NCBI GenBank assembly: GCA_017443465.1
Contig: JAFRXO010000003.1
Location: 1-44,437 of the forward strand
Reading direction: 5' to 3'
DNA length: 44,437 nucleotides
DNA from: Bacteroidales bacterium
GTDB lineage: Bacteria; Bacteroidota; Bacteroidia; Bacteroidales; UBA932
Position numbers and translations under genes: made by a program. Below the pieces are notes generated by a model. It saw nothing but the letters and a program-made list of their open reading frames with translations, was not told where the DNA came from and did not search any database. Positions 175 through 44,437 of the stretch are shown piece by piece (position 1 is the stretch's first letter; every line of letters begins with the position of its first letter).

Positions 175-3100
175 ATGTTAAAGAAACACTCCGTGTTAAT
201 GATGACAGCATTTGTTTTGCTGGCTTCATTCTTATGCACGGCTCCAAAATCCAAAGCATCAGTCCTGACACAGAATCCTGTGACAGTAACCGGTACGGTG
301 GTTGATGAAGCCGGCCCTGTGATTGGTGCGACTGTTATGGAACAGGGCACCTTGAACGGTACGATGACAGGATCTGACGGTACATTCTCGCTTCGAGTAA
401 GTTCACCTCAGTCAGTCATTGTTATCACCAGCATCGGATATGCCGACCAAGAATTCGCCGTAGGCGACAAACGCAATTTTGACGTTCACCTCGCTACCAC
501 AAGCACAACCCTTGACGAGGTCGTTGTCATCGGTTACGGAACCGTGCAGCGCAAGAACTTCACCGGTTCCGTATCTACATTGAAAGTCGCGGACACTCCT
601 GTGGCTCAGCTTCCGATGACCAACCCGATGACTGCCCTCAGGGGAACCACCACGGGTATCGAGGTCGGAGTAGAAGACGGAGCAGGAGCGACTCCTTCCC
701 TCCAGATCAGGGGGCAGAAATCCGTCAACGGCGACCAGACCCCGCTCATCGTCATGGACGGTGTCATATACTCAGGAGCCTATCGTGACATTGACCCGAA
801 CATCATCCAGTCAATCAGCGTACTGAAGGACGCCACGTCCCTGGCAGCTTACGGATCCCAGGCCGCCAACGGTGTCATCATGATAACCACGAAGAAAGGT
901 TCGACCGAGAAACCGGTCATCAACTTCAACACTTCAATAGCCCTTTCAAACATCGCCATGAAGCCGAAGCTTCTCAGCAACAAAGACTATATCCGCATGA
1001 CGAACCTGCTCAGCGGATATGCCGAGGACACTGACCCGCTCAGCTACTTCCACGAGTTTGCATACGAGATGTACAAGAACGGTACTCCCACGGATGCTTT
1101 TGACTACTCCACCCGTACCGGTGTACTTCAGAACTACTCGGCATCGGTTTCCGGAATCAAGGACAAGATCAACTACTTCCTTTCCGGAACCTACAACAAG
1201 CAAAAAGGCATCATCATAGGCGACGACTACAAACGTACCGTACTCAATGCCAAGATCCAGAGCGACATCACCGACTGGCTCCAGATAGGCGGCAAGATCA
1301 GCTATTCCGCAAACGACTACTCCGGTGCGACCGTGACAGACCTCAACCAGGCTCTCAAGGCCTCTCCATATGGAAAATACACCCGCGAAAACGGCGAACC
1401 GGAGAGATTCATCCTCGGGCAGGGATGGGATCAGGTAAACCCGCTTTGGGATGTACTCAGCGGCACCATCGATGACGAGGACAAGAAACAGACCGTTGAC
1501 ATGAGCGGCCACGTACTCATTAAGGTTCCATGGGTGGAAGGCCTCACCTACAGGATCAACGGTAGCTACAGGACACGCAACGACCGTATCAACCACTTCA
1601 CGCATGAAGGACATGAAGTCGACATGTACACAGATTCCGGTAACTCTGAGGAAAGGTATTCGGACGTTGAAATCGCAAAGCACCTTGCTGCGGCCAACGG
1701 CTACAGCCTTCGCCAGAACAGACTTTCCTGGGTAATGGATAACATCCTGAACTACACCCGCTCATTCGGAAACCATTTCGTCGATGCCACCCTCGTGTAC
1801 ACAAGGGACTACAATGATTTTGAATCCAGGAGGATGACCGGAAAAGATTTCTCCAGCCTCGGCAATTCCAATCTCGGCGCTTACGGCCTTAATTATGCCG
1901 AGACACAGAAGATCGAGACTCCGGAATACTGGAAACACACCGACATCGGTTACCTGGCCCGTTTGAACTATGCTTTCAGGGACACCTATCATCTTTCCCT
2001 GTCCTTCAGAAGGGACGGCTCATCTGTTTTCGGACAGGACCGCAAATGGGGTAACTTCCCCGCCGTCGGTCTCGCCTGGACAGTCAGCAACGAACCTTTC
2101 ATGCAGAATATCAATGACAAGCTTTCTTATCTGAAATTAAAAGTATCCTGGGGAAAGAACGGTAACCAGACCCTCTCTCCCTACCAGACCCTATCTACGA
2201 TCAGCCTCGGACAGCCGGGAAATCTCAGCTATCCATTTGATAACTCCTCTGCAGTCAACTGGGGCGAGGTCGTCAACAAAATCGGAAATCCCGATCTTGG
2301 ATGGGAAACCACGGAATCATTTAACTACGGATTCGAGCTTGGACTCCTTCATGACAGAATACGTCTCGAATATGATGGCTATTTCTCGAAGACCACAGAC
2401 CAGATTTTCGGCCGCAACATCCCGGTCATCATCAATGGTATCACCTCCGTAGATGCCACAATGGGGCAGGTGAACAACTGGGGTATGGAAATCAATCTTA
2501 CCACCCAGAACATCCGCACGCAGGAACTCAACTGGACCACCAAGCTCAGCTTCTATCTCAACCGCAACAAACTGGTGGATCTCTATGGAGACGGCAAGGA
2601 TGACGTCGCTTCGTCCCTCTTCCTCAAGAAATCACTCGGCGCCCTCTACGGCTATAAGGACATAGGGATCATCCAGGCAAAATACGATGCAAACGGCAAT
2701 CCTGTCTATGACGACAGCGGCAACCTCGTAGTTTGCGATGAAGACGCCGCTTATGCCGCTGCCAACGGTGCGAAACCAGGAGAAGTCAAGTTTGCCAACC
2801 TGGACGGAAGCGAGGACAACAAAATCACTGCATCAGACCGCACCATCCTCGGCTATAACAAGCCTAACTTCACCATGAGCCTCATGAACGACATCAGTTG
2901 GAAGAATTTCGATCTTTATTTCCTCTTTACCGGCACTTTCGGCGGAAGTGGTTATGGCAGATACTGGAACAAGTTCGCTTACCAGACTTACGACGGTTCA
3001 AACGCTGCAAACATGAGCCTCGACCACCCCTGGTGGACAGTTGAGAACGCAAGCAACACCTACCCGAAGATCAACTACAACAACGGCAACTACACTCCTG

Positions 3101-3330
3101 TACAGAGCTGGGCATTCGTCCGTCTTCAGGACCTTTCCCTCTCCTACCGCTTCAACCGCTCTCTCCTGGAGCAGTACAAGATTGCAGGTCTGAAAGTCTA
3201 TTTCTCCTGCCAGAACCTGTTCACCATCACCAACTGGGATGGCGGCGACCCGGAGAGGCGCCAGACACGCAACCACTTCGGTTATCCCCTCTCAAGAGTG
3301 TTCTCCTTTGGTGTAAACCTTACCTTCTAA
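175..3330 (+). CDS. SusC/RagA-family TonB-dependent outer membrane transporter
   Basis: This 1051-residue protein should form the outer-membrane barrel that imports oligosaccharides bound by the SusD partner next door, powered by TonB. It starts with a signal peptide (about residues 1-29). A carboxypeptidase-regulatory-like beta domain follows (about 38-105, with the typical VTGTVVDEAGPVIGATV pattern), then the SusC signature region and plug (LDEVVVIGYGTVQRKN, then IRGQKSVNG, PLIVMDGV, VLKDATSLAAYGSQAANGVI). The remainder is beta-barrel, ending in Phe (SFGVNLTF) as usual for outer membrane proteins. There is no STN domain, so no built-in link to an anti-sigma factor. Length is normal for the family. 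The SusD gene starts 12 nt downstream. It holds only one CATATG word, far fewer than most other genes here. Family call is secure; substrate is not known. Confidence 0.96.
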   Translation: MLKKHSVLMMTAFVLLASFLCTAPKSKASVLTQNPVTVTGTVVDEAGPVIGATVMEQGTLNGTMTGSDGTFSLRVSSPQSVIVITSIGYADQEFAVGDKRNFDVHLATTSTTLDEVVVIGYGTVQRKNFTGSVSTLKVADTPVAQLPMTNPMTALRGTTTGIEVGVEDGAGATPSLQIRGQKSVNGDQTPLIVMDGVIYSGAYRDIDPNIIQSISVLKDATSLAAYGSQAANGVIMITTKKGSTEKPVINFNTSIALSNIAMKPKLLSNKDYIRMTNLLSGYAEDTDPLSYFHEFAYEMYKNGTPTDAFDYSTRTGVLQNYSASVSGIKDKINYFLSGTYNKQKGIIIGDDYKRTVLNAKIQSDITDWLQIGGKISYSANDYSGATVTDLNQALKASPYGKYTRENGEPERFILGQGWDQVNPLWDVLSGTIDDEDKKQTVDMSGHVLIKVPWVEGLTYRINGSYRTRNDRINHFTHEGHEVDMYTDSGNSEERYSDVEIAKHLAAANGYSLRQNRLSWVMDNILNYTRSFGNHFVDATLVYTRDYNDFESRRMTGKDFSSLGNSNLGAYGLNYAETQKIETPEYWKHTDIGYLARLNYAFRDTYHLSLSFRRDGSSVFGQDRKWGNFPAVGLAWTVSNEPFMQNINDKLSYLKLKVSWGKNGNQTLSPYQTLSTISLGQPGNLSYPFDNSSAVNWGEVVNKIGNPDLGWETTESFNYGFELGLLHDRIRLEYDGYFSKTTDQIFGRNIPVIINGITSVDATMGQVNNWGMEINLTTQNIRTQELNWTTKLSFYLNRNKLVDLYGDGKDDVASSLFLKKSLGALYGYKDIGIIQAKYDANGNPVYDDSGNLVVCDEDAAYAAANGAKPGEVKFANLDGSEDNKITASDRTILGYNKPNFTMSLMNDISWKNFDLYFLFTGTFGGSGYGRYWNKFAYQTYDGSNAANMSLDHPWWTVENASNTYPKINYNNGNYTPVQSWAFVRLQDLSLSYRFNRSLLEQYKIAGLKVYFSCQNLFTITNWDGGDPERRQTRNHFGYPLSRVFSFGVNLTF

Positions 3331-3342
3331 ATCAGCAGAACC

Positions 3343-5130: not shown

Positions 5131-5160
5131 GACGGAATCCGATTTTTTATGACTAACTTT

Positions 5161-5191
5161 ATGGCCGGCGCATATTTACGCCGGCCATTTT
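5161..5191 (+). terminator. Rho-independent terminator/attenuator after the SusD gene
   Basis: A perfect 10-bp GC-rich stem (5161-5170 ATGGCCGGCG with 5179-5188 CGCCGGCCAT) encloses an 8-nt loop and runs into TTTT. It sits between the SusD gene and the GH78 gene in the same direction. It probably reduces read-through, so that transporter transcripts exceed enzyme transcripts. Confidence 0.85.
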
Positions 5192-5204
5192 AAAATCAGA
5201 CCAC

Positions 5205-7484: not shown

Positions 7485-7515
7485 CAGCGAAACCAATAAC
7501 CAATAACTACATCAT

Positions 7516-9504
7516 ATGAAAAAAATACTGCTCACAATCCTAGCCGTGTTCCTGCTCACCACAGGGACTATGTCTGCCTATGTGGAGCGCAACCTTCTCC
7601 GCAGCCAGGCGGACGAAGCCAAACTGAAGACGCTTCTGATTCCGGACCAGAAATGGGTTCCGTTCCCGGCCTACAGCGACAGGGCAGGATGGGACGCACT
7701 TCTGGGTGACTGGAAGGATGACCTGATAGCCCGGGGAGAAGATGCCCTCAACTATGAGTGGAGGGTCGTGACCGCAACCGATTACCTTACACATGACCGC
7801 GGAGGCTCACAGGGTGAAGCCGGAGCGAATTTGAACTCCAACGTCATGAAGATAGTCGATCTCTTCTTCGCTGAACTGGCAACCGGACAGGGAAAGTACA
7901 TCAACAAGATGGCAAACGGCGCGTTCACACTGTGTGAAACCTCCACCTGGGTCCTTTCGCATCACCTCTACCTGCAGAAGACCGCACACCATTTCCCCCA
8001 GTTATTTGACAACTGCATCGACCTCGTCTGCGGCGACGTAGGTTCCGTAATGGCATGGGTTTACTACTATTTCCACAATGAGTTCGACAAGATAGAGCCA
8101 GAGATAAGCCGCCGTCTCTACGAAGAACTTGACAAGCGTATAATGACCCCCTACCTCACCGAAACCCATTTCTGGTGGAAGGGAGACAGGTTCCATCCTG
8201 AAAAAGGCCGGACTTTCGACAAAAGTATAAAGGTCATGCTCGGAACCGGAAAGGAATTCGATCCGGAGAACGGTTATCTGAACAACTGGACCCCCTGGTG
8301 CAGCGTGAACTGCCTCCAGGTATTCGCTCTCTGCGAAAAGGACATGGACCGTTATGCGAAAGCCGCCTACATGTCCATGGAGTCGGTTGACAAATACATC
8401 AACAACCTCGAAGGGGACGGATGCTGTGACGAAGGGCCTTCCTACTGGTACCAGGGTCCTGCGAAGAACTTCGAGTATCTCCTGTTCCTCAACTGGGTCA
8501 CAGGCGGCAAGGTCAATGCACTGGACAACCCTATGATCAAGAGGATGGGAGAATACATCTCAAGTTCTGTCATAGGAAACGGCTGGGTTGTAAACTTCTC
8601 GGACGCGAGCGCCCGCGGCGGCGGGAACCCGCTCGTACTCTACAATTACGGGAAAGGAGTGAACAGCCCGCTCATGAAACATTATGCCGCATATGTAATG
8701 GACGGAAAACCTGTTGCCATTCCAAGGGACCGTTACATTATCAGGATGTTCTACTCACTCCTTGTCAAGGATGACCTCAAGAAGGAGACCCCGGAACTCG
8801 TGACGGAGCCCTACACCTGGTATCCCGAGACCCAGATGTGCTACATGAGGGAAAAAGACGGTTTCTTCGTTGCATCGAAGGGCGGCCACAACGCCCAGAG
8901 CCACAACCACAATGACATAGGATCGGTCTCTGTCTACTACAAGTCCATCCCGTTCCTCATCGATGCCGGAGTGGGAACTTACATTACGAAGACCTTCAGC
9001 CCGCAGCGTTATGAGATCTGGACCATGCAGTCCAATTACCACAACCTGCCCCTGATCAACGGAGTTGCCCAGAAGGATGGACGTCAGTACGAGAGCAAAC
9101 AGTCTGTGTTTGATCCTAAGACCATGACTTTCTCGGTAGATTTCGCAGGGACATATCCCGCAGAAGCCTGCGTAAACAGCATGCTCAGGAACGTTACCCT
9201 GAAAAGCGGGAAGGTTACCATAAAAGACAGTTACCTGCTCTCTCAGTCAAAGAAACCCACTGACTTCAACTGGCTGACATGGGGTAACGTCGACATCAAG
9301 ACCCCCGGCAAGGTAAAGATAACTGTCCAGGGCGAGACCGTAACCCTCAATTACGACGGAAAACGGCTTGAACCGATAATCGAGACCATAGTCCAGGACG
9401 ATCCTCCCCTGCAGAGAGTCTGGGGAGACCAGATCTACCGCGTCACCCTTCGCGAGCGCAAGGCTGCGACAAAGGGCACATATACATTCACCGTAACACG
9501 ATAG
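7516..9504 (+). CDS. Heparinase II/III-type polysaccharide lyase, array copy 1
   Basis: This is the first of four tandem paralogues of a secreted lyase (662 residues). Family members cleave uronic-acid polysaccharides by beta-elimination. It has a signal peptide (about 1-20, ending MSA), an N-terminal (alpha/alpha) toroid and a C-terminal beta-sandwich of the heparinase II/III type. Likely catalytic residues are Tyr310/Tyr312 in the EGPSYWYQG motif and the His cluster 458-465 in GGHNAQSHNHND, matching the Tyr/His pairs of this fold. Unlike the other copies it has about 22 extra residues at about 225-247 (nt 8190-8278) before the shared LNNWTPWCSVNC block. The C-terminus (TFTVTR) resembles copy 3. 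The start ATG is inside CATATG. PL family and substrate are unresolved; the neighbouring rhamnosidase suggests a rhamnose-uronate glycan. Confidence 0.85.
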   Translation: MKKILLTILAVFLLTTGTMSAYVERNLLRSQADEAKLKTLLIPDQKWVPFPAYSDRAGWDALLGDWKDDLIARGEDALNYEWRVVTATDYLTHDRGGSQGEAGANLNSNVMKIVDLFFAELATGQGKYINKMANGAFTLCETSTWVLSHHLYLQKTAHHFPQLFDNCIDLVCGDVGSVMAWVYYYFHNEFDKIEPEISRRLYEELDKRIMTPYLTETHFWWKGDRFHPEKGRTFDKSIKVMLGTGKEFDPENGYLNNWTPWCSVNCLQVFALCEKDMDRYAKAAYMSMESVDKYINNLEGDGCCDEGPSYWYQGPAKNFEYLLFLNWVTGGKVNALDNPMIKRMGEYISSSVIGNGWVVNFSDASARGGGNPLVLYNYGKGVNSPLMKHYAAYVMDGKPVAIPRDRYIIRMFYSLLVKDDLKKETPELVTEPYTWYPETQMCYMREKDGFFVASKGGHNAQSHNHNDIGSVSVYYKSIPFLIDAGVGTYITKTFSPQRYEIWTMQSNYHNLPLINGVAQKDGRQYESKQSVFDPKTMTFSVDFAGTYPAEACVNSMLRNVTLKSGKVTIKDSYLLSQSKKPTDFNWLTWGNVDIKTPGKVKITVQGETVTLNYDGKRLEPIIETIVQDDPPLQRVWGDQIYRVTLRERKAATKGTYTFTVTR

Positions 9505-9507
9505 CAT

Positions 9508-11445
9508 ATGAAAAAGATAATTCTGTCAGCAATAACGTTGTTCCTGCTCGCAGGAGCAGCTTCCGCCGCAGACTATGTCGAGCGCAACATGCTTCGCAAG
9601 CAGGCTCCTGACGTGGCTGCACTGAAGGCAATGCTGGTCCCGGACCAGAAATGGGTTCCTTTCCCCGCCTACAGCGACCGAGCCGGCTGGGACAAGGTGA
9701 TGGGATCCTGGAAAGACACCTTCATCGAAAGAGGTGAGGCGGCCCTTGACTACAAGTGGCAGGTTGTCAGCGCCGATGATTACCTTACACACAACCGCGG
9801 ACAGTCTCAGGGACAGGCTGACGCCCACATAGGCGCCAACATGATGTCGATTATCGACCTGTTCTTCGCTGAACTCGCTACCGGACAGGGCAGGTACATC
9901 GACCAGCTTATGAACGGGGCTTTCTATATGTGCGAAGTCACCTCATGGGTCCGTTCGCACCATCTGAACCGCCAGAAAGACGGTCGTTATTTCCCGGAAT
10001 CATATGACAATGCTATCGACCTGGTGGCCGGCGACGTCGGCGCCATCATGGCATGGGTTTACTACTATTTCCACGATGAGTTCGACAAGATAGAGCCGGA
10101 AATCAGCCGCCGAATCTACTATGAGCTGGACAAGAGGATCATGAAACCCTATCTCAATGATACGCACTACAGTTGGAAAGGAGACAAATTCGTTCCCGGC
10201 CAGAGCCATCTGAACAACTGGACTCCCTGGTGCAGTGTCAACTGCCTCCAGGTGTTCGCCCTCTGCGAAAAAGACATGGACCGCGTAGCAAAGGCGGCCT
10301 ATATGTCGATAGAGTCGGTCGACAAGTACCTCAACAATATCGAAGGTGACGGATGCTGCGACGAGGGACCTACCTACTGGTATCAGGGTCCTGCCAAGAA
10401 CTATGAGTACCTGGAATTCCTGAACTGGATTACCGGAGGAAAGATCAATGTGTTCAACGAGCCCATGATCAGGAGGATGGGTGAATACATCACCACATCC
10501 ACAATAGGAAACGGCTGGGTGGTCAATTTCTCCGACGCTTCCGCCAAGGGTGCGGACAACGCCCTGATAATATACAATTACGGAAAGGGTGTCAACAGCC
10601 CGCTGATGATGCATTACGCCGCATATGCCCTCAAAGGACAGCCGGCTCCTGTGATGCATGACAGGTTCATCATCCGAATGATGTACTCTCTCCAGATCAA
10701 GGAGGAGCTCGAAAAGGAGACCCCGGGACTGGTGTTCGAGCCATATACCTGGTATCCTGAGACCCAGATATGCTACATGAGGGAGAAAGACGGCTTCTTC
10801 GTTGCGACCAAGGGAGGCCACAATGCCCAGAGCCACAACCATAATGACATCGGTACGGTTTCTCTCTACTACAAGATGATCCCGTTCCTCATCGATGCGG
10901 GTGTCGGCACTTATATCACCAAGACTTTCAGTTCACAGCGCTATGAGATATGGAGCATGCAGGCAAACTATCACAACGTCCCGATGCTCAACGGGGTCGC
11001 TGAGAAGGAAGGCCGCCAGTACCAGAGCAAGCAGTCCACATTCGACCCGAAGACAATGACTTTCTCGGTGGACTTTGCCGGGACATTCCCTGCAGAGGCT
11101 GCTGCCAAGAGCATGGTCAGGACCGTCAACCTCAAGAACGGCAAAGTGACCGTCAAGGACAGCTATTCGCTTTCCGAGTCCAAGAAACCTGCGGATTTCA
11201 ACTGGCTGACATGGGGTGACGTAGACATCAAGACTCCGGGCAAGGTAAAAATCACCGTTCAGGGAGAGACCGTGACCCTTAACTACGATGCCAACAAACT
11301 GGAGCCGGTCATCGAGACCATAGTCCAGGACGATCCCCCGCTGCAGAGGGTCTGGGGAGACCAGGTCTACCGTGTAACCCTGCGTGAGCGCAAGGCTGCC
11401 ACAAAAGGCACTTATACGTTTACATTCACTCCCGAAGCTAAGTAG
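9508..11445 (+). CDS. Heparinase II/III-type polysaccharide lyase, array copy 2
   Basis: This 645-residue paralogue starts 3 nt after the stop of copy 1, with the start inside TAGCATATGAAAAAG. The signal peptide is about 1-20 (ends ASA). The toroid keeps the EGPTYWYQG motif (Tyr290/Tyr292) and the sandwich keeps GGHNAQSHNHND (His438 first). It is the most divergent copy in the N-terminal third (RKQAPDVAALKAMLVPDQ instead of RSQADEAKLKTLLIPDQ), while its last 200 residues are close to the others. Its tail (TFTFTPEAK) pairs with copy 4. It lacks the copy 1 insertion. The divergence may reflect a different chain-length or side-chain preference on the same glycan; that is inference. Confidence 0.85.
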   Translation: MKKIILSAITLFLLAGAASAADYVERNMLRKQAPDVAALKAMLVPDQKWVPFPAYSDRAGWDKVMGSWKDTFIERGEAALDYKWQVVSADDYLTHNRGQSQGQADAHIGANMMSIIDLFFAELATGQGRYIDQLMNGAFYMCEVTSWVRSHHLNRQKDGRYFPESYDNAIDLVAGDVGAIMAWVYYYFHDEFDKIEPEISRRIYYELDKRIMKPYLNDTHYSWKGDKFVPGQSHLNNWTPWCSVNCLQVFALCEKDMDRVAKAAYMSIESVDKYLNNIEGDGCCDEGPTYWYQGPAKNYEYLEFLNWITGGKINVFNEPMIRRMGEYITTSTIGNGWVVNFSDASAKGADNALIIYNYGKGVNSPLMMHYAAYALKGQPAPVMHDRFIIRMMYSLQIKEELEKETPGLVFEPYTWYPETQICYMREKDGFFVATKGGHNAQSHNHNDIGTVSLYYKMIPFLIDAGVGTYITKTFSSQRYEIWSMQANYHNVPMLNGVAEKEGRQYQSKQSTFDPKTMTFSVDFAGTFPAEAAAKSMVRTVNLKNGKVTVKDSYSLSESKKPADFNWLTWGDVDIKTPGKVKITVQGETVTLNYDANKLEPVIETIVQDDPPLQRVWGDQVYRVTLRERKAATKGTYTFTFTPEAK

Positions 11446-11448
11446 CAT

Positions 11449-13377
11449 ATGAAAAAGATAATCCTGTCAGCAATTACGTTGCTCCTTTTTGCAGGAGCAG
11501 CCTCCGCCGCAGACTACGTCGAGCGCAACATACTCCGCAGCCAGGCGGACGAAGCCAAACTGAAAACTCTCCTCATCCCGGACCAGAAATGGGTCCCGTT
11601 CCCTGCTTACGGCGACAGGGCCGGCTGGGATAAAGTCCTGGGTGAATGGAAGGATGAGTTTATCGCCCGCGGTGAGGATGCCCTTGATTACAAGTGGAAG
11701 GTGATCACCGCAACCGATTATCTCACGCATGACCGTGGAGGTTCACAGGGAGACGCGAACGCCAGCATGAGCTCAAATGTCATGAAGATCATCGACCTCT
11801 TCTTCGCTGAACTGGCGACAGGACAGGGCAAGTACATGGACCAGTTGATGAACGGCACATTCAACATGTGCGAAGCCACTTCCTGGGTTCTCTCGCATCA
11901 CCTTTATCTGCAGAAAAGCGGACATTATTTCCCCCAGTCATATGACAACGCCATCGACCTTGTCTGCGGGGACGTCGGGGCCGTAATGGCCTGGGTTTAC
12001 TACTATTTCCACAACGAATTCGACAAGATCGAGCCGGAAATCAGCCGCCGCCTCTACGAGGAGCTGGACAAACGTATCATGACTCCGTACCTGACCGAAA
12101 AACATTTCGGCTGGAAGGGAGACAACTTCAATACCGAGACCGGACACCTGAACAACTGGACGCCCTGGTGCAGCGTGAACTGCCTTGAGGTGTTCGCACT
12201 CTGCGAGAAGGACATGGACCGCTATGCAAAGGCAGCCTACATGTCCATGGAGTCCGTGGACAAGTACCTGAACAACATCGAGGGGGACGGATGCTGCGAT
12301 GAGGGTCCTTCTTATTGGTATCAGGGCCCGGCCAAGAACTATGAGTACCTCCTGTTCCTCAACTGGATCACCGGCGGCAAGGTTAACGGGCTCGACAACC
12401 CTATGATCAAGAGGATGGGAGAATACATCTCGAGCTCAGTCATAGGCAACGGCTGGGTAGTCAACTTTTCCGACGCCGGCGCCCGCGGTGGCGGGAATCC
12501 GCTGGTAATCTACAACTACGGCAAAGGAGTGAACAGTCCGCTGATGAAGCGTTATGCAGCATATGTCCTGGACGGTAAGGACATTACCGTTCCCCGGGAC
12601 CGTTTCATCATCCGAATGTTCTACTCCCTCCTCGTCAAGGATGACCTGAAGAAAGAGACCCCCGAGCTTGTCATGGAGCCTTACACATGGTATCCAGAGA
12701 CCCAGATATGCTACATGAGGGAAAAGGACGGATTCTTCGTCGCTTCGAAGGGCGGTCACAACGCACAGAGCCACAACCACAATGACATCGGCACCGTTTC
12801 TCTCTACTACAAGGCCATCCCGTTCCTCATCGACGCCGGAGTCGGCACCTACATCACCAAGACCTTCAGTTCGCAGCGCTATGAGATCTGGACCATGCAG
12901 TCGAACTACCACAATGTTCCCCTGATCAACGGCGTCGCGGAAAAAGAAGGACGCCAGTACCAGAGCAAGCAGTCCACGTTCAACCCGAAGACCATGACCT
13001 TCTCCGTGGACTTTGCCGGGACATATCCTGCAGAAGCCTGCGTCAACAGCATGCTCAGGAACGTCACCCTGAAGAACGGGGTCGTGACCATCAGGGACAG
13101 CTACTCGCTTTCCGAGTCAAAGAAGCCCACGGACTTCAACTGGCTGACATGGGGTGACGTCGACATCAAGACTCCGGGCAAGGTGAAGATCACCGTGCAA
13201 GGCGAGACTGTGACACTGAATTACGACGCCAAGAGACTGGAGCCGTCGATCGAGACCATAGTCCAGGACGATCCGCCGCTGCAGAAAGTCTGGGGCGACC
13301 AGATCTACCGCGTCACCCTGCGCGAGCGCAAGGCCGCAACGAAGGGAGCATATACATTCACCGTAACACCACGATAG
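11449..13377 (+). CDS. Heparinase II/III-type polysaccharide lyase, array copy 3
   Basis: This 642-residue paralogue follows copy 2 after the same 3-nt CAT spacer. The signal peptide (KKIILSAITLLLFAGAASA) is nearly the copy 2 signal, but the mature N-terminus (RSQADEAKLKTLLIPDQ) is the copy 1/4 type, so the gene looks mosaic. Catalytic motifs EGPSYWYQG and GGHNAQSHNHND are intact, as is the shared core (NGWVVNFSDAGARGGGNP). The end (TFTVTPR) differs from copy 1 by one inserted Pro codon. It should be secreted to the periplasm or cell surface and act with its siblings. Confidence 0.85.
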   Translation: MKKIILSAITLLLFAGAASAADYVERNILRSQADEAKLKTLLIPDQKWVPFPAYGDRAGWDKVLGEWKDEFIARGEDALDYKWKVITATDYLTHDRGGSQGDANASMSSNVMKIIDLFFAELATGQGKYMDQLMNGTFNMCEATSWVLSHHLYLQKSGHYFPQSYDNAIDLVCGDVGAVMAWVYYYFHNEFDKIEPEISRRLYEELDKRIMTPYLTEKHFGWKGDNFNTETGHLNNWTPWCSVNCLEVFALCEKDMDRYAKAAYMSMESVDKYLNNIEGDGCCDEGPSYWYQGPAKNYEYLLFLNWITGGKVNGLDNPMIKRMGEYISSSVIGNGWVVNFSDAGARGGGNPLVIYNYGKGVNSPLMKRYAAYVLDGKDITVPRDRFIIRMFYSLLVKDDLKKETPELVMEPYTWYPETQICYMREKDGFFVASKGGHNAQSHNHNDIGTVSLYYKAIPFLIDAGVGTYITKTFSSQRYEIWTMQSNYHNVPLINGVAEKEGRQYQSKQSTFNPKTMTFSVDFAGTYPAEACVNSMLRNVTLKNGVVTIRDSYSLSESKKPTDFNWLTWGDVDIKTPGKVKITVQGETVTLNYDAKRLEPSIETIVQDDPPLQKVWGDQIYRVTLRERKAATKGAYTFTVTPR

Positions 13378-13380
13378 CAT

Positions 13381-15315
13381 ATGAAAAAGATAATCATTTC
13401 GGCAATAATGCTGCTTCTCTTCGCAGGAGCAGCCTCCGCCGCAGACTACGTCAAGCGTAACATACTCCGTAGCCAGGCGGACGAAGCAAAACTGAAAACG
13501 CTCCTCATTCCGGACCAGAAGTGGGTCCCGTTCCCGGCTTATGGTGACCGTGCAGGCTGGGATAAGGTGTTCGGCGAATGGAAAGACGGCTTCATCGCAC
13601 GTGGCGATGCCGCCTTGGATTACGAGTGGAGGGTTGTCACCGCAACCGATTATCTCTCACATGACCGCGGAGGTTCCCAGGGAGAAGCGTGGGCGAACAT
13701 GTATTCCAACGTCATGACTCTCATCGATCTCTTCTTCGCAGAACTGGCGACGGGACAGGGCAAGTACATGGACCAACTGATGAACGGCACGTTCTATATG
13801 TGCGAAGTTACTTCCTGGGTCCTTTCGCATCACTTCTTCCTTCAGAAGAGCGGGCACTTCTTCCCTCAGTCATATGACAACGCCATCGATCTAAGAGCCG
13901 GAGACGTAGGGTCCGTAATGGCTTGGGTTTACTACTATTTCCACAACGAATTCGACAAGATCGAGCCGGAAATCAGCCGCCGCCTCTATGAAGAGCTGGA
14001 CAAACGTATAATGACCCCGTACCTGACCGAAAAGCATTTCGGCTGGAAGGGAGACAATTATGTGCCCGGAAGAGACCACCTCAACAACTGGACTCCCTGG
14101 TGCAGCGTGAACTGTCTCGAAGTGTTCGCACTCTGCGAGAAGGATATGGACCGCTATGCAAAGGCAGCCTATATGTCTATGGAGTCCGTTGACAAGTACC
14201 TGAACAACATCGAGGGGGACGGATGCTGTGATGAAGGCCCCACCTACTGGTATCAGGGTCCCGCCAAGAATTTCGAGTACCTCCTGTTCCTCAACTGGAT
14301 CACCGGCGGCAAGGTGAATGCGCTTGACAATCCCATGATAAAGAGGATGGGAGAATACATTTCGAGTTCAGTCATCGGCAACGGCTGGGTGGTCAACTTC
14401 TCCGATGCCAGTGCCCGTGGCGGCGGGAACCCGCTCGTAATCTACAACTACGGCAAAGGCGTCAACAGTCCGCTGATGAAGCATTATGCGGCATATGTCC
14501 TTAACGGCAAGCCTATTACACCTATAAGAGACCATTTTATCATCCGCATGTTCTATTCGTTCCTCGTCAAGGACGAACTCAAGGAAGAGACCCCCGAACT
14601 TGTCCAGGAGCCTTACACATGGTATCCTGAGACCCAGATATGCTACATGAGGGAGGATGACGGATTCTTCGTCGCTTCGAAGGGCGGCCACAACGACCAG
14701 AGCCACAACCACAATGACATCGGTTCGGTATCGCTCTACTACAAGGCCATCCCCTTCCTTATCGACGCCGGTGTCGGCACGTACATCACGAAGACCTTCA
14801 GTCCGCAGCGCTATGAGATCTGGACCATGCAGGGGAACTACCATAACATTCCGATGATCAACGGTATCCCGGAGAAAGAGGGCCGCAAGTACGAGAGCAA
14901 GCAATCTACCTTCAACCCGAAGACGATGACTTTCTCGGTGGATTTCGCCGGAACTTATCCTGCGGAGGCCTGTGTAAACAGCATGCTCAGGAATGTCACT
15001 CTGAAGAAGGGGGTTGTGACCGTCAAGGACAGCTACTCGCTCTCCCAGTCCAAGAAACCCACGGACTTCAACTGGCTCACCTGGGGTGATGTCGACATCA
15101 AGACCCCCGGCAAGGTCAAGATGACCGTCCAGGGCGAGACCGTAATCCTCAACTACGACGCCAAGAGGCTGGAGCCGTCAATAGAGACCATCGTCCAGGA
15201 CGATCCTCCTCTGAAGAGGGTCTGGGGAGACGAGATCTACCGTGTTACCCTGCGTGAGCGCAAAGCGGCTACCAAGGGGGCTTACACCTTCACCTTCGTT
15301 CCGGGAAGTAAATAA
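13381..15315 (+). CDS. Heparinase II/III-type polysaccharide lyase, array copy 4
   Basis: This last paralogue (644 residues) is most similar to copy 3 over the toroid (EKHFGWKGDN, then HLNNWTPWCSVNC). It has a signal peptide (ends ASA), EGPTYWYQG, and a His cluster with one change, GGHNDQSHNHND (Asp for Ala between Asn and Gln), next to the presumed active site. A nearby change (REDDGFF for REKDGFF) makes the entrance more acidic. The tail TFTFVPGSK pairs with copy 2. A hairpin at 15321-15344 closes the array before the convergent tsaB gene. Confidence 0.85.
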   Translation: MKKIIISAIMLLLFAGAASAADYVKRNILRSQADEAKLKTLLIPDQKWVPFPAYGDRAGWDKVFGEWKDGFIARGDAALDYEWRVVTATDYLSHDRGGSQGEAWANMYSNVMTLIDLFFAELATGQGKYMDQLMNGTFYMCEVTSWVLSHHFFLQKSGHFFPQSYDNAIDLRAGDVGSVMAWVYYYFHNEFDKIEPEISRRLYEELDKRIMTPYLTEKHFGWKGDNYVPGRDHLNNWTPWCSVNCLEVFALCEKDMDRYAKAAYMSMESVDKYLNNIEGDGCCDEGPTYWYQGPAKNFEYLLFLNWITGGKVNALDNPMIKRMGEYISSSVIGNGWVVNFSDASARGGGNPLVIYNYGKGVNSPLMKHYAAYVLNGKPITPIRDHFIIRMFYSFLVKDELKEETPELVQEPYTWYPETQICYMREDDGFFVASKGGHNDQSHNHNDIGSVSLYYKAIPFLIDAGVGTYITKTFSPQRYEIWTMQGNYHNIPMINGIPEKEGRKYESKQSTFNPKTMTFSVDFAGTYPAEACVNSMLRNVTLKKGVVTVKDSYSLSQSKKPTDFNWLTWGDVDIKTPGKVKMTVQGETVILNYDAKRLEPSIETIVQDDPPLKRVWGDEIYRVTLRERKAATKGAYTFTFVPGSK

Positions 15316-16558: not shown

Positions 16559-16559
16559 A

Positions 16560-16590: not shown

Positions 16591-16635
16591 CACGCTATTC
16601 TGCGCACAAAATTAGCAATTTTTAAGTGATTGTAT

Positions 16636-19600
16636 ATGAAATTCAAAGAATATAAAGGTCTGGACCTCGTTGCAACGGGTGCTGAGGTGCTTGAGAGCTG
16701 GAAACGGAACCACACCTTCGGGAAATCGCTTGCCAAACGCGACGGAGCTCCCGAGTTCATATTCTTCGAAGGTCCTCCTTCGGCCAACGGCATGCCAGGC
16801 ATCCATCACGTCATGGCCAGGTCCATAAAAGACGCCATATGCCGCTATAAGACCCAGACTGGCTACAAGGTCAGCCGCAGGGCCGGATGGGACACCCACG
16901 GGCTGCCGGTAGAGATCAATGTCGAGAAACTGCTCGGGATCCACAAGGAAGACATCGGCACCACAATATCCGTAGAAGAGTACAACAAGACCTGCCGCAG
17001 GGAGGTCATGAAATACACCAAAGAGTGGGTGAACATGACCGAGAGGATCGGTTACTGGGTGGACATGGACGACCCCTATATCACCTACGACAACAGGTAC
17101 ATCGAAACCCTCTGGTGGCTCCTGAAGAAGATATATGACAAGGGCCTGCTCTACAAGGGATTCAGCATACAGCCATACTCTCCCTCCGACGGCACCGGCC
17201 TGAGCTCTCACGAACTCAACCAGCCCGGGTGCTACAAGGATGTGTCCGACACCACGGTTACCAGCCAGTTCCTGGTCATCAAGGACGCCAAGTCCCAGCC
17301 ACTTTACGGAACCGAGTCATTCCCGGTCTATTTCCTGGCCTGGACGACCACTCCCTGGACCCTTTCTTCGAATACGGCACTCTGCGTTGGACCGGATATA
17401 GATTATGTCCGGGTCCTCAGCTTCAATCCATACACCGGAAGCGAAGCCATATATGTCCTCGCGAAAGACCTTGTAAAGGAATGGTTCAATCCCAAGGCAG
17501 AGGGTCTGAATCTCACCGATTACAACAAGGGAGACAAACTGGTTCCATGGCAGCTCCTTGACGGAGTCTTCAAGGGCAGCGAACTTGCCGGTATCCACTA
17601 CAAGCAGCTTATCGACTGGTTCAGGCCCATCGAGGACGGTGCATTCCGCGTCATCACCGGAGATTATGTCACCACCGAAGAAGGAACCGGAGTGGTACAC
17701 ATAGCCCCGACTTTCGGAGCAGATGACAAGAAGGTTGGAGAAGCCAACGGCATACCGGCCCTCCAGTGCCTTGACCGCCAGGGACGCAGGCAGCCTCTCG
17801 TGGACCGCAGCGGCCGTTACTGGCGCATCGAGGATCTCGACCCGCAGTATGTAAAAGATTATATGTCAACGTCATATGAATCGGTCGCAGGACGCTATGT
17901 AAAGAACTCCTTCGACGACTCGATTCCGGCCGACGCCCCCACCCTCGACGTAGACATATGCATGCAGCTCAAGGCTGACGGACGCGCTTTCAAGATCGCG
18001 AAGCATGTCCACAGCTATCCCCACAGCTGGCGTACCGACAAGCCGGTCCTCTACTATCCCCTGGACGCCTGGTTCATCAAGACCACGGCAGTCAAGGACC
18101 AGATGGTAGCCCTTAACAAGACTATCAGGTGGAAACCGGAATCCACGGGAACCGGACGCTTCGGCCAGTGGCTGGAGAACATCCAGGACTGGAACCTGTC
18201 GCGCAGCCGCTTCTGGGGCACCCCGCTCCCAATCTGGCGCACCGAAGACGGCAAGGAGGAAATCTGCATAGGCTCGATCAAGGAACTCTACAACGAGATT
18301 GACAAAGCGGTCGCTGCAGGGATGATGAAGAGCAACCCGCTGCGTGACAAGGGCTTCGATCCTGAGGATATGTCCCATGAAAACTACGACAGGATCGATC
18401 TTCACCGCCCATATGTAGATGAAATCGTGCTCGTCTCCCCCACCGGGCAGAGGATGCAGAGGGAACCGGACCTCATCGACGTCTGGTTCGATTCCGGTTC
18501 GATGCCATATGCCCAGGAAGGCCTGAGGAACCTCGACTCCGCCAAATTCGGATGCACCGCGGACTTCATCGCCGAAGGAGTGGACCAGACACGCGGATGG
18601 TTCTACACCCTCCACGCGATCCACACCATGATCAGCGGCACTCCCGCATTCAAGTGCGTCATATCCAACGGACTCGTCCTCGACAAGGAAGGCAATAAGA
18701 TGTCCAAGCATCTCCACAATGCGGTGGATCCCTTCCTCGAACTCGACAAATTCGGCCCCGACACCCTGCGTTGGTATATGCTTACAAACGCCCAGCCGTG
18801 GGACAACCTGCGCTTCGACGAGAGCGGGGTTGACGAGGTACGCCGTAAATTCTTCGGCACGCTTTACAACACATATGCATTCTTCGCCCTTTACGCCAAT
18901 GTCGACAATTTCGACGTAAAGGCTCCGGAAGTACCTGTAGACCAGAGGCCTGAGATCGACCGCTGGCTGCTCTCGCTTCTCGAGACCCTGATTACGAAGG
19001 TAAGGGCTGCATATGAAGACTACGACATCACAACGGCAGGACGCCTGATCCAGGATTTCGTCTGCGACGACCTGTCCAACTGGTACGTCCGCCTGAACCG
19101 CAAACGCTACTGGGGCGGAGAGATGAACCAGGACAAGCTTTCGGCATACCAGACCCTTTACAAGGCCCTGGTTGATGTGGCGATCCTGGCTGCGCCGATT
19201 GCTCCGTTCTACATGGACCAGATCTACACGGACCTCGTGAAAGACGGAGAGGAAAGCGTCCACCTGGCGCTTATGCCCGAGCCGGATACCGCGCTCATCG
19301 ACCATGACCTCGAGGAGAGGATGAACTTGGCGCAGAAAGCCGTATCCATGGTTCTCGCCCTCCGCCGCAAGGTTGGTATCAAGGTCCGCCAGCCCCTGTC
19401 CAGGATGCTGGTCCCGGTCATCTCTGAAAATGTCCGCCGTCAGCTGGAGCAGGTCCGTCCGGTCATCCTGAGCGAAGTCAACGTGAAGGATATGGAGTTC
19501 ATCTCCGACACAACCGGAATCATCACCAAGAAGATCAAGCCCAACTTCAAGACCCTGGGCAAGGTCTATGGCAAGAACATGAAGGAACTCGCCGCGGCAT

Positions 19601-29214: not shown

Positions 29215-30126
29215 TTATTTCCAACGGCGGTGGGACCAGAGGTAGTTGGCCGGGGTCTTGCGGATGTCGGCTTCGAGGAGGGAGTAGTAGCGCTCGAGCA
29301 TCTCTTCTTCGCTCATCTGGCGGCCGTCGTCGCATATGGGAGTAAGGCGCATCTCATACCGGCCGCGCTCAAGGCGGTCAAAGCATATGTACATGACTCC
29401 CAGGCCGTACCTGTGAGCCAGGGCAACTGCTCCCGCCATGGCCTCTGTCTCCTGGTTCATGAAGCTCCCGATCTTGCGTCCAGTTGAATTCTTGTACGGG
29501 TGCTGGTCGTTGTCGAAAATGAAAACCAGGGGGTCGTTCTTGTGGGCCAGCGCGAAACGAAGCACGTTTTTCGACTCTACATAATGGCGGAAATCCTTCA
29601 GCGGATAACTGCGGTTGTCCCTCACGAAATGATCCCAGAAATCACTGAAGAGCCTCTTGTACACCACGCATATGTTCGCTTCCCCAAACGGAAGTTCCTC
29701 AGGAGGAATCTCATAGCTGTACTGGAGGAAGCCCCCGAGGGTCTCGAAATTCCCGAAATGGGAATTGAGAAGGATCACGTGCGGATTGGCCTTGTAGATC
29801 CGGACCAGTTCTTCCATACCGCGAGCCTCGCACATATGGCTGTCACGCAGGCGCGAAGTCCCCGGTTCACACCCTCCGAACCACATCGCCTCGGCGAAGA
29901 TCTCGCCCATATGATTGTAATAGTCGTGGGCCAGCTTGGTGATAGCCTTGTACTTCAGCTCGGGAAAACTCCTGGAAAGATTGGTTATGATGATGTCCCT
30001 GCGGTAACGCACCACATTTTCGGCGAGCCAGGCGAAAGCCGACCCCATGGCATAATGGAAGCCCAGGGGGAGCTTCTGGAAAGGCTTTATCAGAGCCTTG
30101 AATATTTTGTAGCCCGTCTCAGCCAT
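29215..30126 (-). CDS. LpxL/HtrB-like lysophospholipid/lipid A acyltransferase
   Basis: This 303-residue, probably inner-membrane-associated enzyme should transfer an acyl chain to lipid A or a similar lipid. The HX4E catalytic motif is His123-Phe-Gly-Asn-Phe-Glu128 in LLNSHFGNFETLGG. Other family features are VVYKRLFSDFWDHF, the conserved basic DNDQHPYKNSTGRKIGSFM region, and the C-terminal NYLWSHRRWK. I started at Met 30126 (MAETGYKIFKALIKPF), 7 nt after the flavodiiron stop; the 29-residue longer reading overlaps that gene. The Ntn-hydrolase starts 17 nt downstream. Confidence 0.88.
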   Translation of the reverse strand: MAETGYKIFKALIKPFQKLPLGFHYAMGSAFAWLAENVVRYRRDIIITNLSRSFPELKYKAITKLAHDYYNHMGEIFAEAMWFGGCEPGTSRLRDSHMCEARGMEELVRIYKANPHVILLNSHFGNFETLGGFLQYSYEIPPEELPFGEANICVVYKRLFSDFWDHFVRDNRSYPLKDFRHYVESKNVLRFALAHKNDPLVFIFDNDQHPYKNSTGRKIGSFMNQETEAMAGAVALAHRYGLGVMYICFDRLERGRYEMRLTPICDDGRQMSEEEMLERYYSLLEADIRKTPANYLWSHRRWK

Positions 30127-30133
30127 AACAGTA

Positions 30134-31339
30134 TCAGCCGTTTGCCAGCAGGTCGGCGAAAGCCGCAGCGTCGAACTTCGAAGGATCGTATCCGCTCTTG
30201 AAGCCGTATCCATCGCAGAGAACCTCGAGACCCGCTTCAGCGGCCAGCGAGTTCAAGACCTTGTTTCCTCCGCCCACCCAGGTATATGACCCGAATGAAG
30301 CGAACCTGCGTCCCTTCACCCCGCGCAGGGCAACCCCGTGCATGAAATCGCGAACTGCCGGGAAAATGTCAGTGTTATAGGTAGGCGAGCCGACTGCCAG
30401 GGTGTCATAGCGGAAAGTCCCTGCATATGCAAACGAAGGCCCCTGCTCGGCCACCAGGTCATGCATCTCGTTCGGGATTCCACGGGCGGTGAGCGCCTCG
30501 GAAAGGGCCTGGGCCGCGGCTGCGGTATTGCCGTACATGGATCCATAGACTATATTCACCCCGTGGTCGGCATCGTAGCGGCTCATACGGTCGTAAAGCG
30601 AAACAACCTGCGGGATCCGCTCCTCCCAGACCGGTCCATGGGTCGGGCATATGCGCTTGATTTCCAGACCCGAAAGCTTGCGGAGGGCCGCCTGGACGGG
30701 TGCTCCGTACTTCCCTACTATGTCGGCATAATAGCGCTGCATCTCTCCCTTGAAAGCCTCAAAGGCATTCTCAAAAGAAGATGAAGCCTTGTAAAGACTT
30801 GACTGATAATCCCTGATGTCACCGCAGACGGCGCCGAAACAGCCGAATGCATCTCCCGAGAACACCGTCTTTTCGTCCTCAAGCCAGGTCACCATGGTCT
30901 CGGGCCAGTGGACCATCGGAACCATATGGAAACTCAGGCTGCAATGTCCCAGAGGAAGGGTGTCGCCTTCCTTGACGAGGATGATGTCAGTGTCGATCCC
31001 GCTGAATTCCTTGATCATTGCGGCAGCCTTCGCATTGGTGACTATCCGGATGTCAGGCCACTTCTCCCTCACGGGAACCATTAGGGCTGAATGGTCAGGT
31101 TCCATATGATTCACTATCAGGTAATCGACCTTCCTGTCCCCTATCTCGGCTTTGATGTTGAAGAAGAATTCATCGGCAAATCCGGCGGCCGCGGTGTCTA
31201 TCAGGGCGACCTTGTCATCGACCACAAGATAGGAATTGTAGGATACCCCGTGAGGAAGCGGCCACTGCCCCTCGAACACTCTGCCACGCAGGTCGTTAAC
31301 ACCCACGTAACTTATTCTGTCATTGATTTTGGAATGCAT
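30134..31339 (-). CDS. A-type flavodiiron protein (FprA-like oxygen/NO reductase)
   Basis: This 401-residue cytoplasmic enzyme has an N-terminal metallo-beta-lactamase-like diiron domain and a C-terminal flavodoxin domain. The diiron ligands are visible as His78-Glu80-Asp82-His83 in NHMEPDHSALMV, with GDAFG and CPTHGPVW supplying others. The FMN-binding segment reads VYGSMYGNTAAAAQAL. Such proteins reduce oxygen to water or NO to nitrous oxide in anaerobes, protecting against air or nitrosative stress. It is first in the minus-strand operon and has a -7 element at 31373-31380. Confidence 0.95.
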   Translation of the reverse strand: MHSKINDRISYVGVNDLRGRVFEGQWPLPHGVSYNSYLVVDDKVALIDTAAAGFADEFFFNIKAEIGDRKVDYLIVNHMEPDHSALMVPVREKWPDIRIVTNAKAAAMIKEFSGIDTDIILVKEGDTLPLGHCSLSFHMVPMVHWPETMVTWLEDEKTVFSGDAFGCFGAVCGDIRDYQSSLYKASSSFENAFEAFKGEMQRYYADIVGKYGAPVQAALRKLSGLEIKRICPTHGPVWEERIPQVVSLYDRMSRYDADHGVNIVYGSMYGNTAAAAQALSEALTARGIPNEMHDLVAEQGPSFAYAGTFRYDTLAVGSPTYNTDIFPAVRDFMHGVALRGVKGRRFASFGSYTWVGGGNKVLNSLAAEAGLEVLCDGYGFKSGYDPSKFDAAAFADLLANG

Positions 31340-31402: not shown

Positions 31403-31407
31403 CATGA

Positions 31408-34587
<3,180 letters not shown>

Positions 34588-34592
34588 ACACC

Positions 34593-36399: not shown

Positions 36400-36406
36400 A
36401 ACGTTA

Positions 36407-36414
36407 CAAAGATA
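36407..36414 (-). promoter_or_regulatory. -7 element close to the start codon (minus-strand gene)
   Basis: The minus strand reads TATCTTTG, a perfect TAnnTTTG, and the ATG begins 8 nt further on. Transcription would begin within a few bases of the start codon, giving a leaderless or near-leaderless mRNA. Confidence 0.5.
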
Positions 36415-36439
36415 CGGCAAATATTCCGTTTTCTTTCGC

Positions 36440-36447
36440 TATTTTTG
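36440..36447 (+). promoter_or_regulatory. -7 element close to the start codon (HD gene)
   Basis: TATTTTTG matches TAnnTTTG and ends 2 nt before the ATG at 36450 and 5 nt before the ATG at 36453. The true start is therefore probably 36453 with a leaderless message, unless another promoter is used. Confidence 0.5.
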
Positions 36448-36449
36448 TA

Positions 36450-38517: not shown

Positions 38518-38522
38518 AGCAT

Positions 38523-41579: not shown

Positions 41580-41591
41580 CACTATAACGAA

Positions 41592-43148: not shown

Positions 43149-43159
43149 AACCTGAACAT

Positions 43160-44437
43160 ATGAAAAAAACAGCCATCCTGCTCTTCGCTTTGGCACTGAT
43201 CGCAGGCAAAGCCCAGGCAAAGGAAGAACTGCTTCCCTATCAGGACAAATCCCTGCCTGCTGAAACCAGGGCCGCAGATCTCGTGAGCCGTCTTACGATT
43301 GAAGAAAAAACCTCTCTCATGATGCACCCCTCCGCGGCCGTTCCGCGCCTGGGAATCAAAGCCTACAACTGGTGGAGCGAAGCCCTTCACGGTGTCGCGC
43401 GCAATGGTTCTGCTACGGTCTTCCCGCAGCCCATCGGAATGGCGGCATCTTTCGACGAAGACCTCGTCCTCCAGGTTTTCACCGCTGTCAGCGATGAGGC
43501 CAGGGTAAAGCACCGCTTGGCAAGGCAGCAAGGTGATGTCAAGATCTACCAGGGACTGACCTTCTGGACCCCGAACATCAACATTTTCCGCGATCCCCGC
43601 TGGGGCCGCGGCATGGAGACATATGGTGAAGATCCTTTCCTGACCGCAAAGTTGGGAAGCGCCGTGGTCCACGGACTCCAGGGGTCGGACGATTCTCCTG
43701 TCCGCAAACTGCATGCATGCGCAAAACACTATGCAGTACATTCCGGCCCGGAATCCATCCGCCATTCCTTCGACGCACAGGTGTCAGAACGCGACCTGCG
43801 TGAAACCTATCTCCCGGCTTTCAAGGAACTCGTAGTAAAAGCAGGAGTGGAAGAGGTAATGACTGCATATAACCGTTTCCGCGGCGAACCATGCGGAGCC
43901 AGTTCCTATCTTATCGATACCATCCTCAGAGGTGAGTGGGGTTACAAGGGAATCATCACCTCAGACTGCTGGGCAGTTTCCGATTTCTATGTACAGGGAA
44001 GGCACGGATTTTCTCCTGATGCCGCCTCTGCCGCTGCGGCTGCAGTACATGCAGGAGTCGACACCGAATGCGGAGAAACCTACAGGCACATTCCCGAAGC
44101 AGTGGAAAGAGGACTGCTGGATGTCACGGACATCGACAGGAACCTGATCCGCCTGATAGCTGACCGCTACCGCCTTGGAGAGATGGATGGGATAGACCCC
44201 TGGGAAAATCTTCCTGAAAACATAGTGGAAGGAGCTGAGCACAAGGCTCTTTCGCGCAAGATGGCAGAAGAGTCGATTGTCCTTCTCCAGAACAATGGGA
44301 TCCTTCCCCTTAAAGAAGGACAGAAGGTAGCCCTGGTCGGTCCGAATGCCGATGACAAGAATATGCAATGGGGCAACTACAATCCCATACCCAATTCTAC
44401 CGTAACCCTCAAGGATGCACTCCAGGAGAGGGTCCCC
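43160..44437 (+). CDS. GH3 family beta-glycosidase, beta-xylosidase-like (partial, runs off the window)
   Basis: The first 426 residues are present and the reading frame stays open to the window end. A signal peptide (about 1-20) is followed by the GH3 N-terminal barrel (YNWWSEALHGVARNG, then TFWTPNINIFRDPRWGRG). The nucleophile is Asp269 in GIITSDCWAVSDF, and the start of the second domain is visible (ESIVLLQNNGILPLKEG). The ALHG and NIFRDPRWGRG features resemble the GH3 beta-xylosidases of about 850 residues. With GH2 and GH51 it fits arabinose/xylose/galactose side-chain breakdown. Confidence 0.93.
   Translation, partial: MKKTAILLFALALIAGKAQAKEELLPYQDKSLPAETRAADLVSRLTIEEKTSLMMHPSAAVPRLGIKAYNWWSEALHGVARNGSATVFPQPIGMAASFDEDLVLQVFTAVSDEARVKHRLARQQGDVKIYQGLTFWTPNINIFRDPRWGRGMETYGEDPFLTAKLGSAVVHGLQGSDDSPVRKLHACAKHYAVHSGPESIRHSFDAQVSERDLRETYLPAFKELVVKAGVEEVMTAYNRFRGEPCGASSYLIDTILRGEWGYKGIITSDCWAVSDFYVQGRHGFSPDAASAAAAAVHAGVDTECGETYRHIPEAVERGLLDVTDIDRNLIRLIADRYRLGEMDGIDPWENLPENIVEGAEHKALSRKMAEESIVLLQNNGILPLKEGQKVALVGPNADDKNMQWGNYNPIPNSTVTLKDALQERVP

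Follow-up and report, generated by a model that had tools for sequence, protein, structure and literature searches.

The palindrome CATATG occurs 71 times in the stretch of Bacteroidales DNA analysed here (contig JAFRXO010000003.1, 44,437 nt; hereafter the window) and 4230 times in the 2.645 Mb of the genome that contains it, a density of 1599 per Mb. We find that the word is subject to a fixation bias of about S = 3 that is symmetric, independent of neighbouring words and, among the genomes searched, present in two related species: the gut-type Bacteroidales bacterium that carries the window (G000; 2,645,555 bases in 81 contigs, 96% complete) and its sister species (G510; 79% complete). Our leading explanation, put forward tentatively, is a bias near S = 3 per site on the duplex word, worked most likely by biased conversion through an enzyme that reads CATATG.

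CATATG in the window and in related genomes

The initial annotation of the window had counted about 70 copies of CATATG by hand and judged them far in excess. The 71 copies compare with 8.5 ± 2.8 in dinucleotide-preserving shuffles (maximum 15 among 100) and with 9.2 and 18.2 expected under Markov models of order 0 and order 2; the runner-up among palindromes of the same composition, TCATGA, has 22. Inside the 25 genes of the window, the word falls in all three codon frames, as had been noted: 37 as xCA-TAT-G, 18 as xxC-ATA-TG and 8 as His-Met. Six more lie at start codons, and two (43157 and 43620) have no assigned class. Of the seven start codons that had been placed within the word, the six compared (7516, 9508, 11449, 13381, 21479 and 38523) all match the gene set of this analysis, and the report that minus-strand genes also carry the word is borne out by nine copies at 29333-31103 within minus-strand open reading frames (ORFs). 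One count did not hold: CATATA, put at only about a dozen, reaches 30 in the window together with its complement TATATG.

Codon bias does not account for the excess, as the annotation had argued. Its proposed shuffle, run as synonymous rather than codon-pair-preserving, gave 12.1 ± 3.1 copies (maximum 22 among 500) in the 25 window genes, where 63 were observed. In larger samples, synonymous shuffling predicted 227 copies for 530 ORFs of G000, which hold 1190, and 124 for 319 ORFs of G510, which hold 623. A 344-kb sample of G000 (21 stretches, four of them N) held 593 copies versus 149 at order 2, the top score of all hexamers. Base composition, codon bias and chance are thus excluded by the shuffles and Markov models, and two separate assemblies agree. 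The sequence examined amounts to roughly 35% of the G000 genome and one fifth of that of G510. N-only stretches were dropped, 9 of 60 in G000 (L117, L121, L123, L124, L266, L267, L272, L279 and L281) and 9 of 50 in G510 (L135, L138, L207, L211, L217, L219, L222, L227 and L228). A smaller first sample served for the genome codon shuffles, the use of permitted contexts and the conservation of palindromes between the sisters.

Counts of the word for 119 family members and 400 genus members, together 511 distinct genomes, were read from tables by eye. Only G000 and G510 (about 1600 per Mb) exceeded 1000 per Mb, and the next, G302, reached about 724. Thus, the dense word is not a genus-wide trait. 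Isoleucyl-tRNA synthetase (IleRS) of G510 is 95% identical to that of G000 over the 804 residues present, while the next nearest in the genus sample is 77% identical; the relatives sampled at that identity or less lack the dense word. Among named records, IleRS finds its closest matches in genomes of uncultured Bacteroidales and of Candidatus Cryptobacteroides, so that the genus is probably the latter. Loci of the relatives carry 114-148 copies per Mb; the density in G000 is at least 12 times theirs. These counts fall below order-2 expectation (130 versus 328 and 21 versus 68, loci L001-L049 and L082-L110). The relatives thus avoid the word, and set against this the excess in the two species represents a reversal. 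No comparably over-represented palindrome was found in 110 loci of other genomes (top z 6.4, for TTTCGAAA in L142, a stretch of G302), and none of the titles and abstract openings listed from a library of open-licence papers described CATATG as over-represented in any bacterial genome.

Use of permitted sites and a shift in protein sequence

Protein sequence permits the word at His-Met, at [SPTA]-Tyr-[VADEG] (frame 1) and at X-Ile-[CW] (frame 2). In G000, the word was used in 169/178 His-Met, 704/944 frame-1 and 310/449 frame-2 contexts, and in G510 in 91/105, 361/515 and 166/244, versus 39/72, 75/1005 and 18/452 in the relatives. About three quarters of the permitted sites are therefore filled in both species. 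Expressed as log-odds shifts for His-Met, frame 1 and frame 2, the values were 2.9, 3.5 and 2.7 in G000 and 1.9, 3.3 and 2.7 in G510, compared to 0.3, 0.1 and -1.0 in the relatives.

The intermediate genomes G302, G206, G319 and G508 carry 0.46-0.70 words per kb, near order-2 and above order-0 expectation (L291, a partly N stretch of G385, was excluded from this comparison). The sample of G302, a genome of lower GC, held 80 words versus 76.8 (order 2) and 31.7 (order 0), with frame 1 mildly over (57/121 versus 22.4) and no excess in frame 2 (9/65 versus 6.7). In G206 there were 11 words versus 3.9 at order 0, with 4/21 in frame 1 versus 0.8 and CAT in 5/5 His-Met pairs; control contexts were raised too (7/42 versus 1.8). 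A weak form of the word pressure may exist in these genomes.

The word has also shifted protein sequence. The His-Met pair occurs at 1.5 (G000) and 1.7 (G510) times expectation, compared to 0.46 in the relatives (p = 1e-22 and 3e-19). The reverse pair, Met-His, did not differ between G000 and the relatives (p = 0.27) and was somewhat raised in G510 (1.11 versus 0.77, p = 0.004). Two of the eight words in the IleRS gene depend on residues in which G000 and G510 depart from almost all of the 28 relatives compared (loci L082-L110 less L103, which has a stop in frame), and both differences complete CATATG. At 17955, G000 and G510 have Asp-Ile-Cys where 24/28 relatives have Asp-Leu-Cys; at 18872, they have Thr-Tyr-Ala where 28/28 have Thr-Tyr-Ser. 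Called ORF starts lie inside the word in 92/698 cases in the G000 sample and 11/806 in the relatives.

Loss and gain between the sister species

Alignments of G000 with G510 cover 67-73 kb. In 67.5 kb at 87.8% identity, CATATG was kept in G510 at 125 of 148 G000 words, compared to 401 of 871 (46%) for the other 63 palindromes (p = 4e-19) and 50% for words of the same composition. Where the amino acids agree, 75/82 words in frame 1 and 35/38 in frame 2 were kept, far more than the same codons elsewhere.

The strongest control holds the two codons identical and lets only the word-completing letters vary. NCA-TAT before G was found in both species at 71 sites, in one species at 8 and 5, and in neither at 19; before other bases, the counts were 6, 5 and 5, and 94. 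For xxC-ATA before TG they were 34, 3 and 1, and 9, and otherwise 51, 64 and 54, and 662. Loss was 8.4% and gain 25.5% for NCA-TAT before G, versus 45.5% and 5.1% before other bases; for xxC-ATA, loss was 5.6% and gain 18.2% before TG, versus 53.6% and 8.2% otherwise. The resulting rate ratios for frames 1 and 2 were 0.145 and 0.075 for loss and 5.6 and 2.35 for gain, while S = 3 predicts a loss ratio of 0.157 (6.4-fold slower) and a gain ratio of 3.2. Words are thus lost 7 to 13 times more slowly and gained 2.4 to 5.6 times faster than controls. Since word-making alone would spare the loss rate and shielding alone the gain rate, a purely gain-driven and a purely loss-shielding process are both rejected.

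Words present in a single species numbered 11 in G000 and 6 in G510 (p = 0.33), consistent with a steady state. Most sites that differ do so by one or two bases. A comparison of sites one and two letters away from the word gave mixed results, a comparison that cannot separate mechanisms at steady state. Among 42 substitutions in lost words, 3 were C-to-T or G-to-A. We discarded a process based on C5 methylation: family PF00145 had no match in either genome, while the 3/42 count is weak evidence, as the encoded protein fixes most of these positions. With codon bias ruled out, the word conserved between the sisters and both rates shifted, the initial annotation is supported where it proposed that the word itself is the target of selection or biased repair, in the manner of HIP1 (a highly iterated palindrome, HIP, of cyanobacteria); its suggestion of a methyltransferase fared worse, as described below.

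Reading of the word and possible agents

Word use in frame 1 varied with the preceding base (G.82, A.78, T.75, C.60) and with the following base (C.84, T.82, A.77, G.55), and the preferences on the two sides are complements. The following-base effect cannot arise from codon choice; the preceding-base effect could in part. This mirror symmetry favours a reading of duplex DNA or of both strands; on this ground, we rejected a signal in mRNA or translation. There is no flank consensus around the word, and we therefore rejected a longer motif. One-letter variants were depleted where a synonymous change yields the word, and those lacking such a route stood at 0.85 to about 1.3 times the level in the relatives, with the largest excesses for CATATA (1.39 versus 1.05 in relatives) and CATAGG (1.20 versus 0.96).

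Spacings between words look exponential, with no preferred distance. Context use was.73-.82 at any distance to the next word up to 800 bp and fell to.59 and.39 beyond, as expected of foreign stretches. Since neighbouring words have no effect, each site behaves independently, and a role that would call for a site in every interval is unsupported; we rejected a spacing function on this ground. Apart from the codon period, a test for helical periodicity gave only a weak signal at 10.1 bp. The nucleoid or segregation protein named in the initial annotation is a possible candidate, weakened by the random spacing and the indifference to neighbours.

Independent sites and strict reading lead us to lean towards conversion. 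The agent would be a dimeric protein of this lineage that reads CATATG strictly and symmetrically, working most likely as a repair or recombination enzyme and resolving mismatches between word and non-word in favour of the CATATG-carrying strand. Such a bias would act on the duplex word and keep its density high at permitted sites. We rate this slightly above weak selection for thousands of sites, each of small effect, to which a protein would bind throughout the chromosome, with a role in nucleoid structure, segregation or Chi-like protection from nucleases, a possibility that we regard as real but doubtful. Nucleoid proteins are usually less strict in sequence than the reading of CATATG seen here, and neither the absence of a neighbour effect up to 800 bp nor the weakness of the helical signal speaks for such sites. 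Nor are the 54 bases upstream of starts avoided, where there are 1.25 words per kb compared to 0.05 in the relatives (and 2.16 just inside genes). Selection would fit the symmetric flank preference and the scarcity of words at gene ends and between convergent genes, and the rates at S = 3 lie near the 2Nes of about 4 given for Neisseria uptake sequences (PMC2397512). Elhai, moreover, deems selection the simplest account of the persistence of HIP1 (PMC4390886).

Several observations weigh against biased conversion or against the strength of the case. Convergent intergenic DNA holds 2 words in 9.9 kb over both species, whereas intergenic DNA of other kinds has about 1 per kb (p = 0.003). Word use is down to.56 over the final 20 codons of genes and to.60 over the opening 40, where the drop may reflect misplaced starts. 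Uniform conversion does not predict these weak regions, which favour selection or at least a constraint. Genes are over-dispersed in word use (chi2/df 1.3 for genes of 4 or more contexts and 1.6 for those of 6 or more). The sister alignments span just the 67-73 kb given above, and in them His-Met words with unchanged amino acids were kept at 15/18, no significant excess over the 151/198 of CAT codons at other places (p = 0.77). Taken alone, the gain in frame 2 falls short of significance (1/10 versus 54/716, p = 0.55), and with His-Met included, single-species words lean to G000, 13 to 6 (p = 0.17). Fixation bias by selection and by biased conversion look alike in these data. Finally, no candidate agent was found in the sequence examined. 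Assembly gaps and families outside the six searched for methyltransferases leave room for a missed enzyme.

We searched both genomes for methyltransferases. PF01555 and PF00145 had no match at E <= 1e-6 in G000 or G510, and PF02384 and PF02086 none at E <= 1e-3, while each of the four matched 3 to 12 members of the genus among the 20 searched, as well as control genomes. PF07669 gave two sub-cutoff matches in each species; the two examined of these four score best against TrmN, a tRNA methylase. PF05063 matched nowhere, control genomes included, and is uninformative. A methylase motif scan returned three candidates in 733 ORFs of G000, of which the one examined is RsmD-like (an rRNA methylase), and none in 340 ORFs of G510. 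Thus, the methyltransferase that the initial annotation had offered as an example found no support in the six families. Since 6 of the 20 genomes, G000 and G510 among them, lack matches to the four families, their absence is in itself unremarkable, yet it removes the usual partner of a HIP. To judge from these matches, many members of the genus may be poor in DNA methylases.

A cognate methyltransferase of an unusual family, or one lying in an assembly gap, may have been missed. NdeI-type restriction-modification systems do read CATATG, the N-only stretches and the completeness of 96% and 79% leave gaps, and Elhai ties the HIPs of cyanobacteria to cognate methylases (PMC4390886). Set against the four families found in controls and missing here, the TrmN-like identity of the PF07669 matches and the outcome of the motif scan, we consider this explanation improbable. 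Restriction itself leads to avoidance of the site, whereas CATATG is in large excess, the strict reading of the same word being the point of likeness to NdeI-type systems. We note separately that GTATAC is strongly avoided, with 79 copies in G000 and none in the window; the 530 G000 ORFs hold 13 where codon shuffling predicts 128, and the 319 of G510 hold 10 where it predicts 70. This avoidance may be a relic of a restriction system, for which no methylase was found in the families searched, and it means that the ratio of CATATG to GTATAC overstates the effect.

Two repair schemes known elsewhere also fit poorly. In the saturating repair model of Elhai (PMC4390886), the pressure relaxes when another word lies within about 1 kb; CATATG use differs from this methylation-directed mismatch repair in being unrelaxed near other words and lower beyond 800 bp. 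Very-short-patch repair of the Vsr type calls for a C5 methylase and restores only T:G mismatches at a single position; it was rejected because PF00145 had no match and losses were suppressed at synonymous A/T (frame 1) and C/A (frame 2) sites; no search for a Vsr gene was made.

The word could instead be an uptake or transfer signal, with donor DNA that bears CATATG preferentially taken up and recombined, a molecular drive like that proposed for DNA uptake sequences (DUS) and uptake signal sequences (USS). To our knowledge, known uptake words are all longer than six letters, and the DUS of Neisseriaceae have 10. They resemble CATATG in being conserved far above their surroundings (97% identity in an 85% background) under scaled selection of the same order (2Nes about 4; Treangen et al., PMC2397512), and word-poor contigs and genes here may be foreign. 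They differ in being mostly intergenic (PMC2397512), whereas CATATG is a palindrome and mainly coding. The enrichment of uptake words is graded over one-mismatch forms in Bakkali's description (PMC1939737), unlike the variants of CATATG, which are not clearly graded. We regard an uptake word as unlikely.

HIP1 was reported in 1995, and the purpose of HIP-like words has been open since; that the HIPs of cyanobacteria are widespread and tied to methylases is part of the reason. HIPs are palindromes found at 500-2500 per Mb through coding DNA and scarce in presumed recent arrivals (PMC4390886, PMC3025956), and those of cyanobacteria generally have a cognate methylase, HIP1 having exceptions (PMC4390886). 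HIP1 (GCGATCGC) and the alternate HIPs share with CATATG a short palindromic form, a coding-wide distribution, scarcity in presumed arrivals and variation between related genomes. CATATG, at 1599 per Mb, lies within their density range and has likewise spread by point substitution, since it lacks shared flanks, sits in three frames and is not a mobile repeat. It differs in being an AT-rich six-letter word of Bacteroidales where HIPs are GC-rich and cyanobacterial, and in having no cognate methyltransferase in the families searched. We therefore offer, as plausible though far from assured, that CATATG is a HIP-like watermark without a methyltransferase, in which a word-specific drive, exerted by an enzyme or DNA-binding protein of this two-species clade, would have turned about 4000 sites into CATATG, and changed some amino acids, through a fixation advantage of ~3 at permitted sites. 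Here the word is confined to two sister species among 511 genomes, no methylase is recognised and the pressure can be measured per site. Comparing gene content and polymorphism within this clade could lead straight to the agent. In both genomes, the word may further help to date horizontally acquired DNA and to spot contigs that were mis-binned. It serves as a caution that a DNA word can set codon usage and even amino-acid pairs.

Short contigs of G000 (L283, L119, L271 and L274) are nearly word-free. L283 carries genes for carbamoyl-phosphate synthase and CTP synthase, which points to mis-binning beyond mobile DNA alone; word-poor contigs are likely mis-binned as well as recent arrivals. L119, L271, L274, L283, L203, L269 and L285 were excluded only from the tests of neighbour distance and per-gene dispersion. 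In the window, the opening 4.4 kb, mostly a SusC gene, has one CATATG, and this gene is possibly a recent arrival.

Positions of CATATG and of selected word-bearing or word-poor genes in the window
Feature	Position	Strand	Remarks
71 CATATG words, part 1	1367, 4430, 4457, 4472, 4551, 5950, 6259, 7435, 7513, 8690, 9505, 10001, 10622, 11446, 11939, 12560, 13378, 13871		
71 CATATG words, part 2	14492, 15730, 15941, 16836, 17873, 17955, 18410, 18506, 18872, 19010, 19661, 20409, 20416, 21476, 25042, 25051, 26016, 29333		
71 CATATG words, part 3	29384, 29669, 29833, 29908, 30424, 30648, 30923, 31103, 32012, 32072, 32865, 33254, 33354, 34218, 34688, 35039, 35181, 36924		
71 CATATG words, part 4	37760, 37822, 38009, 38520, 38654, 38920, 39041, 40180, 40267, 40468, 40981, 41017, 41236, 41756, 42635, 43157, 43620		
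Word over start codon of gene at 7516	7513..7518	+	similar: 9505, 11446, 13378, 21476, 38520
ileS, isoleucine--tRNA ligase	16630..20085	+	eight words inside; TIGR00392, E 3e-289
Three adjoining paralogues (genes 9508, 11449, 13381)	9508..15315	+	words at matching positions
LpxL-like acyltransferase and flavorubredoxin-like genes	29215..31339	-	both below curated cut-offs; nine words 29333-31103
SusC/RagA gene, word-poor	175..3330	+	word used in 1/6 permitted contexts

The region 7516-15315 consists of four tandem, mutually similar genes of 642-662 aa. The one of the four that was scanned (9508-11445) matched no NCBIfam model at E <= 1e-5. Words match among the three paralogues at 10001/11939/13871 and 10622/12560/14492 and at the starts, nine in all, so that the 71 words of the window are not all independent.

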